Assembly (NCBI GenBank): GCA_023250585.1
Contig: JAHFAK010000097.1
Span: 1-7,656 of the forward strand
Length of the DNA: 7,656 bases
Reading direction: 5' to 3'
From: Deltaproteobacteria bacterium
GTDB taxonomy: Bacteria > Bdellovibrionota_F > JAHFAK01
The notes below the pieces were generated by a model. The model saw only the letters and a program-made list of their open reading frames with translations. It made no database searches and was not told the origin of the DNA. This document shows, in pieces, positions 1,084 to 7,656 of this stretch; position 1 is the stretch's first letter, and the number at the start of each line of letters is the position of its first letter. The position numbers were made by a program, and so were the translations under genes.

Positions 1084-1198
1084 GAATCGGTGTCATATGT
1101 TCTTTTTGTATTTCCTATCGACGTCGCTTCCATAATAATTTTAAGAACAGGAAAGCGCGCTCGATAGGAAATACAAAAAGAACATATGACACCGATTC
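1084..1198. repeat. Perfect 38-bp inverted repeat between carA and carB
   Basis: The arms 1084-1121 and 1161-1198 are exact reverse complements over 38 bases. After a 3-by-3 mismatch, the stem continues for 7 more pairs with one bulged base (1125-1131 against 1150-1157), leaving an 18-base AT-rich loop (1132-1149). The element begins 15 bases after the carA stop and ends 14 bases before the preferred carB start, so it fills nearly the whole gap. No U-run follows the right arm, so it is not a textbook intrinsic terminator. I see no flanking direct repeat that would mark an insertion. It could be an attenuator or RNA-processing hairpin that sets the carA:carB ratio, a boundary hairpin, or a small palindromic element. 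The structure is directly visible; any role is inference. Confidence 0.97.
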
Positions 1199-4432: not shown

Positions 4433-4463
4433 TTGACAACAACAATGCAATATATTATATAAT
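4433..4463 (+). promoter_or_regulatory. Sigma-70-type promoter for the exported receiver-like protein
   Basis: A perfect -35 box TTGACA (4433-4438) is followed by TATAAT (4458-4463) with a 19-base spacer, or by TATATA (4456-4461) with the ideal 17-base spacer. The surrounding 30 bases are AT-rich. Transcription would begin near 4470, leaving a leader of about 25 bases before the ATG at 4495. An in-frame ATG at 4462 overlaps the -10 box, so it cannot be on this transcript. This separates the downstream gene from the carAB unit. Confidence 0.75.
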
Positions 4464-4482: not shown

Positions 4483-4487
4483 GGGGG
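4483..4487 (+). promoter_or_regulatory. Shine-Dalgarno-like GGGGG setting the start at 4495
   Basis: A run of five G's (4483-4487) in an otherwise AT-rich leader ends seven bases before the ATG at 4495. It can pair with the CCUCC end of 16S rRNA with wobble. Together with the promoter position, it favours 4495 over the ATG at 4462. Confidence 0.6.
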
Positions 4488-4494
4488 TCTATCT

Positions 4495-6045
4495 ATGAAT
4501 TATATTAAATTAGATTACTATAAAATTAGTCGATTGATTGTGAGTATTGCTCTTCTTTTATTCCTGTCTTTACAAACTGCACGATCAGATGAACCAGTCA
4601 AAGTTTTAATTGCTCTCCATGAAAAGATGCTTGCGGATCTTTATGGAACATGGATGGATGATGAGTTTCTTTCGAAGATGGGCGTTGCTTATGAAATAGA
4701 CGTTGTATACTCATTATCTGAGACAAAAAAAGCACTGTCAGGTAAAGAAAAAAAGTATAAGATTTTGATTATTGATGCTAATTTTCAGGATACTAGCGAT
4801 GGAGAAGGTAGAGCATTAGCTGAAGCAGAAGCAATTAAGAATCCCGAATTAATATATTTTATTACTGCCAGTTCTCGTAAGTCTCTGACTGGTTATGAAT
4901 TACTTTCAGATATTAATCCGAGAAATTATGCAGAGAAAAATGGATTTGGGTTAGTGGTGGAAAAGCCTGATACTCTCACTAAGTATGGAGGAAAATTAAC
5001 ATTATTGCTTCCTCCTCACATTGTATCTCAAAATTTAGCTGTAACACAGCCTATAACGAGGCTCGACATTCTTCTCGTTGATGATACAGAGCTTAGAGCT
5101 CGTATATACAATGAACTTGTTCGTTTATTACAAGGTGACTATATACTAAATATTACAGAATCAGATGGAGCAATAAGGGGTGGTATCCTTGGTGGGACTA
5201 AAAATCCAGCTTTGGATCTTTTGCAACATGTACACTTTAATCTTGTTATAGCAAATCGAGATTTAAAGCCTGTAGGCAGTGGCCAATCAATTCATGATGC
5301 TTGTGAAGGACTACCATCAACGGCTTTTCTTGGTTACTTTGATGAGAAACCTGGGCAAAAACCCACTAAACCTGATAGTGATTCACCTTTTATTCCATGG
5401 AATGTACTATCTCCTGAGTTTAGTAAGTATCTCGTTGGAGCTTTTGCTCAAAAGGGTAAAACAATCACGGTAAGTTTACCTTTTCAGAAAGAAGAAGAAG
5501 ACGTTCTTAGAGATCCGAAAAACGAATTAAAGATTCTTATGATTGATGATAGAGGTGTCGAGCGGATGCAGAATAAGTCTAAAATCGCTACATTATTAAA
5601 AACAGAACATACGAATGTTGAAATAGTTGAAGTTGATAATACAAGAGATGCTGAGCGGGAGCTGAAGAGCGGAAATATAGATATAGTTATGGCCAATTTA
5701 TTTACAGGGAAAGATTTTGGCGGGGTAGTAAGCGATAAAGATTTACGATCAACAGATGTGCGTGGAATGTTCGATACTTTACAAACAATAGCTAATCATC
5801 ATATACCCATTATTCTTCTTGCACAAACGCGAGACGTTGAAGCAGATATTCTTAAAGGTAAAGTTCCTGTATCACGTACTCTTTATGTTCAAAATTCATT
5901 GATAGAATTAACGGGAGAAGATCAAGATGAAATTCGGAAAATAGCCAAGGAACGCATGTCAATGAAAAGTCAAAATCTTTCTCAGACAAAAAATGGAAGA
6001 TTCTCAGATCCTAATAGCTGTGGGCATACATTTAGTACGAAATAA
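4495..6045 (+). CDS. Exported protein with three degenerate receiver-like modules
   Basis: I do not recognise a named family. The 516 residues begin with a Sec-type signal peptide or anchor: a lysine-bearing n-region, a hydrophobic core at about 14-26, and a plausible cleavage site ARS|DEP after Ser31. The rest therefore lies outside the cytoplasm. Three repeated alpha/beta segments resemble two-component receiver domains. Module 1 (about 35-175) keeps an Asp at the phospho-acceptor position (LIID, Asp94) and a Lys-Pro (157-158) but lacks the acidic pair. Module 2 (about 189-325) has ILLVDD (Asp196-Asp197), but Asn254 replaces the acceptor Asp (LVIAN). Module 3 (about 345-490) has ILMIDD (Asp351-Asp352), Asn401 at the acceptor site (IVMAN), and IPIILLAQT as a beta-4-like strand. 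The tail after about 490 is polar and low in hydrophobics. No kinase, DNA-binding or enzymatic output domain is visible. Start 4495 is chosen over 4462 on promoter and Shine-Dalgarno evidence. The fold assignment is inferred from motifs; another Rossmann-like fold is possible. Confidence 0.85.
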   Translation: MNYIKLDYYKISRLIVSIALLLFLSLQTARSDEPVKVLIALHEKMLADLYGTWMDDEFLSKMGVAYEIDVVYSLSETKKALSGKEKKYKILIIDANFQDTSDGEGRALAEAEAIKNPELIYFITASSRKSLTGYELLSDINPRNYAEKNGFGLVVEKPDTLTKYGGKLTLLLPPHIVSQNLAVTQPITRLDILLVDDTELRARIYNELVRLLQGDYILNITESDGAIRGGILGGTKNPALDLLQHVHFNLVIANRDLKPVGSGQSIHDACEGLPSTAFLGYFDEKPGQKPTKPDSDSPFIPWNVLSPEFSKYLVGAFAQKGKTITVSLPFQKEEEDVLRDPKNELKILMIDDRGVERMQNKSKIATLLKTEHTNVEIVEVDNTRDAERELKSGNIDIVMANLFTGKDFGGVVSDKDLRSTDVRGMFDTLQTIANHHIPIILLAQTRDVEADILKGKVPVSRTLYVQNSLIELTGEDQDEIRKIAKERMSMKSQNLSQTKNGRFSDPNSCGHTFSTK

Positions 6046-6057
6046 GAAGATCTTCTT

Positions 6058-6280
6058 TGGGGCCGAAGGGGCAGAGTGCCAGGACTTGAGCCGTGGGTGA
6101 ATGAGCCCGCTGGAGATATTTGCAGACCCTAAGATATAGTTAAGGGATGGGATTCATGAAATAAACGCATAGGGTTATACATTGCAGTATCATGTTGTAT
6201 GGGTCTGCACATATCGGAGGCTGATTCAGATCAATTTCGTCTGAAGTTGTAACGGTAAGAACCCCGCGCATGCGCGGGGG
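6058..6280 (+). ncRNA. Candidate structured RNA or structured 3' UTR, class unknown
   Basis: This lies in a stretch of about 310 bases without a gene. Positions 6059-6113 are about 69% G+C (38 of 55) in an AT-rich window. Possible helices are 6070-6073 with 6077-6080 (GGCA/TGCC); 6093-6098 with 6105-6110 (GTGGGT/GCCCGC, with wobbles); a long-range helix of 6115-6129 with 6201-6215 (14 of 15 positions pair, core TGCAGACCC/GGGTCTGCA) enclosing 71 bases; 6225-6231 with 6239-6245; and the GC palindrome 6262-6279. No promoter is evident just upstream, so it may be the 3' UTR of the exported-protein gene. I could not match it to tRNA, tmRNA, RNase P, SRP RNA or a riboswitch class I know. Strand is uncertain, because the helices also form on the minus strand apart from the wobbles. 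Confidence 0.4.
6262..6279. repeat. Perfect 18-bp GC-rich palindrome
   Basis: CCCCGCGCATGCGCGGGG equals its own reverse complement. As RNA it can form a 7-bp GC stem with a CAUG tetraloop. No T-run follows on either strand, so it is not a canonical intrinsic terminator. It may be the last hairpin of the candidate RNA to its left, or a protein-binding palindrome. Confidence 0.9.
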
Positions 6281-6293
6281 GAATCTATGAGTT

Positions 6294-6364
6294 TTTCTAG
6301 CATAGCAAAGTATAGTTGGCTAAATTATGACAATAACGTAAACTATACTTTGCTATGCTAGAAA
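6294..6364. repeat. Perfect 24-bp inverted repeat at the convergent gene boundary
   Basis: The arms 6294-6317 and 6341-6364 are exact reverse complements, separated by a 23-base AT-rich loop (6318-6340). The right arm contains the stop codon (6358-6360) and last codon of the minus-strand dehydrogenase. The element lies between two converging transcripts, where a two-way terminator or mRNA 3'-end-protecting hairpin is expected. Neither side has a downstream U-run. Its sequence is unrelated to the inverted repeat between carA and carB. Confidence 0.95.
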
Positions 6365-7656
6365 TAGTGAATAGAGTCATCCAAAATTCCCAATTCATCG
6401 GCGATGTCGAGAACCGTAAAGCGGCCACGAATATAACGGGCAGACTGAATCGCTCGATGAGCTAATTCATCTGAAACTCCAATGTCTTTAAAGTGTAGTG
6501 GACACTCGGCTTCTGTTAAGTAGTGCTTAATTTTTGGTGGAGTATGTACCAATGAAAATGCTTCTTTTTGCATGCGAGGCCAGAGAGCGGAGAGTTCATT
6601 TTTCCATGTGGCGATTATAGGAATTTTTTTCTTAAACTCATTGGTAATTAATGCTCTATCGTCTGGGAATAATTTTGCAATTTCTCGATCGTAATCAATA
6701 TGTTGTTTGGCGAGCAGAGTTTGTACATCAGTAATGGACAATTTTTTGAGCTCTTCGTAAATTGCGGAAGAAATTCGTACGCCTAAGCCGACTTGCAAAC
6801 CATGATATGCATAGACATTCTGACCATGCTTATGTGCGTACATATCAAGAAAATGCGAGATGAGATGCTCGCCTCCTGATGCTGGCGATGATGCTCCTGC
6901 AATAACCATCGAGAATCCGCCGAGATGTAAACCTTCAAGTAAACCTGCAACTGAATTTCGATCGCGAGAAATTAATTCCTTTCCTTTGGTGATATATTTT
7001 TTCTCAGCTTCAGTTGCTATTTGAAATGGTAATAAACAGAACGGTTCGTTGGTAAGCATTGATGAAATACACCAATCGGCATTTGCAAATGATTTGGCGA
7101 GGCTGTCGGCAAATCCTGATTTAATAAGTAAAAGCGGACTTTCGGCCAGTATGTCAATATCTGCAATTACTCCTCGTGCAGGAGATACAGGGAGTGTAAC
7201 TTTTAAACCATGCGATAAAAAGGCAGCAACATTCGATGTATATGCATTCATTGAAGGAGCCGTCGGGAAACAAAAAACAGGAATTTTTAAAATATTTGCG
7301 CTATATTTGCCAATATCAGTAATGCTTCCTGTTCCAACCGTAAGTATTGCCGATACATTGGTTGAAGCATTAATGACTTTTGTTATATGTTTTTCTTCAG
7401 CATGGACAGCTTCTCCCCGTTCGGGTTTCAGCACGAGGGATGTTATTTTTCCTTTGCTTTGGAGCGTTTCTTTGCATTTTTTTCCCGCAATTTCATAGGT
7501 GATCGCATCGCTGAGAATAAGAATATTCAAGCTCTTGTCAGGCATAAGGCGTTGAAGAAAAGATGGAAGTTCTGCACATGCATTTTTCTTTGAGATAACT
7601 TCTTGAGTAGGGATAAAATGTTCGCGATTACAGGAGGAACAGGTGAATTTTTTATT
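6358..7656 (-). CDS. sn-Glycerol-1-phosphate dehydrogenase-like protein, 5' end beyond the window
   Basis: Probably reduces dihydroxyacetone phosphate to glycerol-1-phosphate with NAD(P)H, as in the G1P dehydrogenase / AraM branch of the iron-type alcohol dehydrogenase fold; another polyol substrate is possible. The frame stays open to the window edge, giving 432 visible residues. An internal ATG (complement of 7543-7545) is not the true start, because the 37 residues before it look like family sequence (CSSCNREHFIPT, then an ELPSFLQRL helix). Visible parts, numbered from the edge: Cys6-Cys9-His13, nucleotide-binding GTGSITD (108-114), PTAPSMNAY (131-139), and probable metal ligands Asp184 (GFADSLAK), His264 (GGEHLISH) and His285 (YHGLQVG). 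Their spacing of 80 and 21 residues fits the family. The C-terminus has ARYIRGRFTVLDIADELG. It is longer than typical archaeal enzymes (about 350 residues), which suggests the bacterial type. It converges on the exported-protein gene, and its stop lies inside an inverted repeat. Confidence 0.88.
   Translation of the reverse strand, partial: NKKFTCSSCNREHFIPTQEVISKKNACAELPSFLQRLMPDKSLNILILSDAITYEIAGKKCKETLQSKGKITSLVLKPERGEAVHAEEKHITKVINASTNVSAILTVGTGSITDIGKYSANILKIPVFCFPTAPSMNAYTSNVAAFLSHGLKVTLPVSPARGVIADIDILAESPLLLIKSGFADSLAKSFANADWCISSMLTNEPFCLLPFQIATEAEKKYITKGKELISRDRNSVAGLLEGLHLGGFSMVIAGASSPASGGEHLISHFLDMYAHKHGQNVYAYHGLQVGLGVRISSAIYEELKKLSITDVQTLLAKQHIDYDREIAKLFPDDRALITNEFKKKIPIIATWKNELSALWPRMQKEAFSLVHTPPKIKHYLTEAECPLHFKDIGVSDELAHRAIQSARYIRGRFTVLDIADELGILDDSIHYF

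Follow-up and report, generated by a model that had tools for sequence, protein, structure and literature searches.

The window, the whole stretch of 7,656 nt that was analysed, belongs to a genome of 2.24 Mb in 164 contigs, from a phylum with one other genome in the collection. A search of the assembly for SSU rRNA gave no match. An open reading frame on its forward strand starts with the ATG at 4495, and its stop codon ends at 6045, giving a product of 516 aa. The in-frame log-likelihood of this frame was approximately that of carA, carB, and the dehydrogenase gene; because its codon usage resembles that of its neighbours, the 516-codon frame was taken as coding. The neighbours are carA and carB, a glycerol-1-phosphate dehydrogenase-like gene on the opposite strand, and, on the far side of a run of Ns, an RmuC-like gene recognised by eye. 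They gave no functional hint. The features of the gene are as follows:

4433..4463, + strand: promoter, TTGACA, 19-nt spacer, and TATAAT (exact pattern)
4483..4488, + strand: probable ribosome-binding site GGGGGT, G-rich, 6 nt 5' of the ATG (sequence)
4495..6045, + strand: whole gene, 516 aa (ORF call, translation, codon usage)
4495..4587, + strand: predicted export signal, residues 1-31, n-region of +2, h-region LIVSIALLLFLSLQT, possible cleavage at TARS/DEP (composition, charge)
4594..5028, + strand: module 1, receiver-like, residues 34-178 (profile comparison)
4774-4776, + strand: Asp94 of module 1, kept acceptor-position residue
4864-4866, + strand: Thr124 of module 1, kept residue
4963-4968, + strand: Lys157-Pro158 of module 1, equivalence to the receiver Lys-Pro uncertain
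5053..5520, + strand: module 2, receiver-like in its first half, residues 187-342 (profile comparison)
5080-5085, + strand: DD196-197 of module 2, acidic pair kept
5254-5256, + strand: Asn254 of module 2, at the acceptor position
5506..5994, + strand: module 3, complete CheY-like (beta-alpha)5, residues 338-500 (predicted structure)
5545-5550, + strand: DD351-352 of module 3, acidic pair kept
5695-5697, + strand: Asn401 of module 3, at the acceptor position
5995..6042, + strand: C-terminal tail, residues 501-516, with Cys509; no output domain (translation, Pfam search)

The exact promoter pattern occurred once in the window, and 2 of 200 shuffled sequences held one. The gene had been credited with its own strong promoter. 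Both hexamers are perfect, which agrees with a promoter of its own, but the word "strong" is unsupported, with a spacer as long as 19 nt. The upstream ATG at 4462 was considered as a start and ruled out, because it overlaps the -10 box.

Several structured elements were observed around the gene. The hairpin between carA and carB (window 1084-1198) represents a dispersed element that is present 76 times in the genome, with another copy at L011 9003-9076. Its tip contains approximately 45 conserved nt (CGACGTCGCTTCCATAATANTNTTAAGAACAGGAAAGCGCG.TCG). Its stem of approximately 37 bp differs in sequence between copies at almost every position (41 copies measured), is Watson-Crick paired in nearly all of the measured copies with G-T pairs almost absent, and stops pairing sharply at pair 39. 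Such a pattern suggests that complementarity of the two arms is maintained in the DNA itself, for example if the sequence of one arm is copied onto the other. The element was absent from the phylum's other genome, and exact matching to 84,980 species and to viral contigs gave no further copy; it is undescribed as far as tested. Another hairpin (window 6294-6364; 24-bp perfectly complementary arms, 23-nt loop of unrelated sequence) overlaps the 3' end of the dehydrogenase gene. Within the intergenic region 6046-6300, GCAGACCC and GGGTCTGC make up a long internal pairing, and CCCCGCGCATGCGCGGGG is a GC hairpin. The region did not reach the gathering score of any Rfam family, folded only slightly better than shuffles (z -1.8), and may be a structured RNA. 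The glycerol-1-phosphate dehydrogenase-like gene (window 6358-7545), here in a bacterium, matched PRK00843 at 161 bits, below the cut-off of 413. A run of Ns (L011 7657-7756) lies at the window end; the dehydrogenase and RmuC-like frames span it and are joined only because Ns carry no stop.

At the N-terminus of the 516-aa product, a net charge of +2 is followed by LIVSIALLLFLSL and then by TARS/DEP. The hydrophobic core has 15 residues with a mean hydropathy of 2.3, and the rest of the protein does not exceed 1.3. TARS/DEP satisfies the -3,-1 rule for signal peptidase. The positive n-region, the hydrophobic core, and the -3/-1 motif of Sec export are thus all present, as judged by composition and charge only, and the host is a diderm, with Omp85 proteins (E 4e-52). 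The signal peptide of the original prediction is consistent with these data. The net charge after the hydrophobic stretch is -1, and from +2 before and -1 after it, the positive-inside rule predicts an N-in/C-out orientation and export. The signal could be an uncleaved membrane anchor rather than a cleaved peptide; cleaved or anchored, the remainder of the protein is predicted to lie outside the cytoplasm.

Three receiver-like modules of approximately 150 aa follow this signal, as the original prediction had proposed and as our analysis confirmed. Module 3 was modelled alone with AlphaFold from its single sequence (pLDDT 68.5, pTM 0.67). The predicted order was E-H-E-H-E-H-E-H-E-H, so that each of the five strands is followed by one of the five helices. 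Because it was folded without an alignment, the model was not steered towards receivers. When it was compared with solved structures, receivers came out on top (Foldseek E 3e-5), and the comparison with ComE REC gave a VIA-align Z of 13.4 and an rmsd of 2.7, with 130 residues aligned. Module 3 is thus predicted to have a CheY-like receiver fold. The single-sequence model of the full-length protein was poor (pLDDT 34) and usable for the third module only. For module 3, the fold search agreed with the original prediction. The matches of the full-length model were mostly receivers and receiver-like decarboxylase wings, over residues 340-471, and the wings ranked alongside receivers for this part. 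The wings of AdiA and LdcI, which are among the top structural matches, are similar to this protein in that a non-phosphorylated CheY-like fold is reused structurally. The decarboxylase wing is cytoplasmic, single, and fused to an enzyme, unlike this array.

The modules were also compared with a profile built from 24 receivers encoded in this genome. The hhalign scores of modules 1, 2, and 3 were 31.8, 25.3, and 29.8, respectively, and all three exceeded the controls: 100 shuffles per module reached at most 18-21, and the CarA, CarB, and dehydrogenase decoys at most 18.8. With hmmsearch, modules 1 and 3 scored above all of 1000 shuffles. The match of module 1 spans about residues 36-130, from beta1 to beta4, and a weak in-register match to the solved response regulator 6m8o was also found (E 0.045). 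Module 2 is the weakest of the three: its hhalign score was obtained over approximately 54 columns, its profile match is limited to its first ~70 residues, its second half aligns poorly, and in plain hmmsearch 7 of 1000 shuffles scored as high. Modules 2 and 3, which open with LDILLVDD and LKILMIDD, respectively, align in register (23% identity over 79 columns, BLAST E 0.18); the BLAST search for internal repeats in the protein gave no other in-register pair. Of the three CheY-like modules that had been claimed, module 3 therefore stands by its predicted fold and modules 1 and 2 by profile, module 2 in part; a complete receiver fold of modules 1 and 2 would be an extrapolation from these alignments. 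The end of module 1 was also considered as the G2 box of a histidine-kinase ATPase, to which KNGFGLVVEKPDTLTKYGGKLTLLLPP is similar by eye. This was rejected, as the HATPase profile score was below shuffles; module 1 did not match a profile of the genome's HATPase domains (hhalign 10.6, below the shuffle mean).

The active-site positions named in the original prediction (Asp94, DD196-197, Asn254, DD351-352, and Asn401) were all found at these positions in the translation. Module 1 has Leu41/His42 in place of the acidic pair. The numbering of Lys157-Pro158, described as its Lys-Pro, is right, but the equivalence to the receiver Lys-Pro is unproven, because these residues lie outside the aligned residues 36-130. 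In module 3, Ala443 replaces Thr, and Lys is also replaced (around Gln466). The acidic pair, the acceptor Asp, Thr/Ser, and Lys occur together in none of the three modules. The acidic pair (modules 2 and 3) and the acceptor Asp (module 1) never share a module, and the loss of phosphorylation is therefore well supported at the level of residues; standard receiver chemistry would be impossible in each module. On this point, the original prediction that phosphorylation has been given up was borne out.

Neither the whole protein nor the separate modules matched any Pfam family up to E 10 or reached the curated cut-off of the receiver family PF00072, and NCBIfam, PHROGs, and PDB sequences gave no significant match. 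Homologues were sought in 386 genomes, among them the second genome that the collection has for this phylum, in viral contigs, plasmids, and phages, and by a pattern scan of 84,980 species, a type of scan that reaches close relatives only; none was found. The search for lineage spread thus left the protein as an orphan within the collections searched. The idea of an undescribed family agrees with the lack of any matching known family, but a single protein is what has been found so far. The protein resembles PF00072 members (CheY, ComE REC, and PmrA REC) in the predicted fold of module 3 and in the profile similarity of modules 1 and 2; it differs from them in having no Pfam match and no intact active site and in being predicted to be exported.

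Bacterial pseudo-receivers (PsR) have a receiver fold, lack at least one of five catalytic residues, and are thought to act independently of phosphorylation (Bourret et al. 2025, PMC12632262). How they switch has been called a mystery (PMC12632262). This protein is similar in that catalytic residues are missing from a receiver fold: module 3 fits the definition by its predicted fold, and module 1 and the N-terminal half of module 2 fit it solely by profile. The PsRs in that review are parts of regulators, whereas here three in tandem follow an export signal, and an output domain is absent. The reviewed PsRs usually lose the second acidic residue (PMC12632262), whereas in modules 2 and 3 both acidic residues are retained and it is the acceptor that is lost. 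The main text of PMC12632262 mentions neither the periplasm, secretion, and signal peptides nor tandem arrays. In the titles and abstracts covered by our literature search, no exported or periplasmic receiver was found.

Approximately 18 receivers are clearly recognisable in the genome, along with several proteins of the order kinase-receiver-receiver. Membrane kinases that end in two receivers are located at L058 1345-4479, L059 1011-3785, L062 295-2409, and L064 2910-5258. They are similar to this protein in having tandem receivers, some of them degenerate, and differ in that kinase domains are present and the receivers are cytoplasmic. Some of the hybrid kinase receivers of C14, C91, C5, and C101 have weak or broken active sites. 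The receivers of the two-receiver kinases C101 and C5 are partly degenerate. An NtrC-type regulator gene lies directly 3' of the C14, C75, and C91 kinases, and the C14 and C5 kinases are each closely preceded by a gene for a periplasmic binding protein. Among the genome's receivers, no single parent of the modules stands out. The paired, partly degenerate receivers of the hybrid kinases are a plausible source of the array.

The topology and the fold can each be read differently. If the anchor were inserted the other way, the modules would remain cytoplasmic and form a membrane-tethered pseudo-receiver hub serving the hybrid kinases, and Asp94 would be a possible residual acceptor. Receivers normally partner cytoplasmic kinases, this genome has many receivers and several kinase-receiver-receiver proteins, and module 1 keeps Asp94 together with Thr124. 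However, the charge difference across the hydrophobic stretch predicts the opposite orientation, the stretch is short and has a typical cleavage site, and module 1 is without the metal-binding acidic pair. We regard this arrangement as rather unlikely. It could also be that only module 3, perhaps with module 1, is related to receivers, and that the rest (module 2, with or without module 1) consists of lobes of another Rossmann-like or flavodoxin-like kind, such as occur in other periplasmic proteins. The short match of module 2, equalled by some shuffles, and its poorly aligned second half would fit such lobes, as would the fact that, where the full model covers module 3, the fold-sharing decarboxylase wings rank alongside receivers. 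Nevertheless, the start of module 2 resembles that of module 3, the two align in register, and the match of module 1 runs from beta1 to beta4; we consider unrelated lobes unlikely.

A decaying or lineage-specific functionless gene, surviving by chance in one genome, would account for the lack of homologues in the phylum's only other genome and elsewhere in the data searched. Such a gene is very improbable here: the 516-codon frame is intact with normal codon usage, a promoter and a ribosome-binding site are present, and module 3 is still predicted to fold.

We lean, with modest confidence, towards an exported tandem array of three receiver-fold modules that has lost phosphotransfer and binds independently of phosphorylation. 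The protein would enter the periplasm by the general secretory route and be freed by signal peptidase or remain tethered by its N-terminus. Its three receiver-fold modules may descend from receivers of the cytoplasm, for instance those paired in the hybrid kinases, with phosphotransfer lost in all three modules. Each module would then offer the surfaces that receivers normally use for contact with partners, and the array may scaffold or sense a partner in the envelope, possibly the sensor domain of a kinase. With the chemistry probably gone and the protein probably outside, binding through receiver surfaces would be the simplest use.

Few domains are as abundant as receivers, whose usual partners are cytoplasmic kinases. 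We give about even chances that this protein is the first example of an extracytoplasmic receiver array, stripped of phosphotransfer and acting as tandem binding modules in the envelope. If this is true, a signalling fold would have been recycled for binding in the envelope, where ATP and cytoplasmic kinase domains never reach. The array would then separate the binding surfaces of receivers from their chemistry, and it would be a clean system for the study of receiver function free of phosphorylation.
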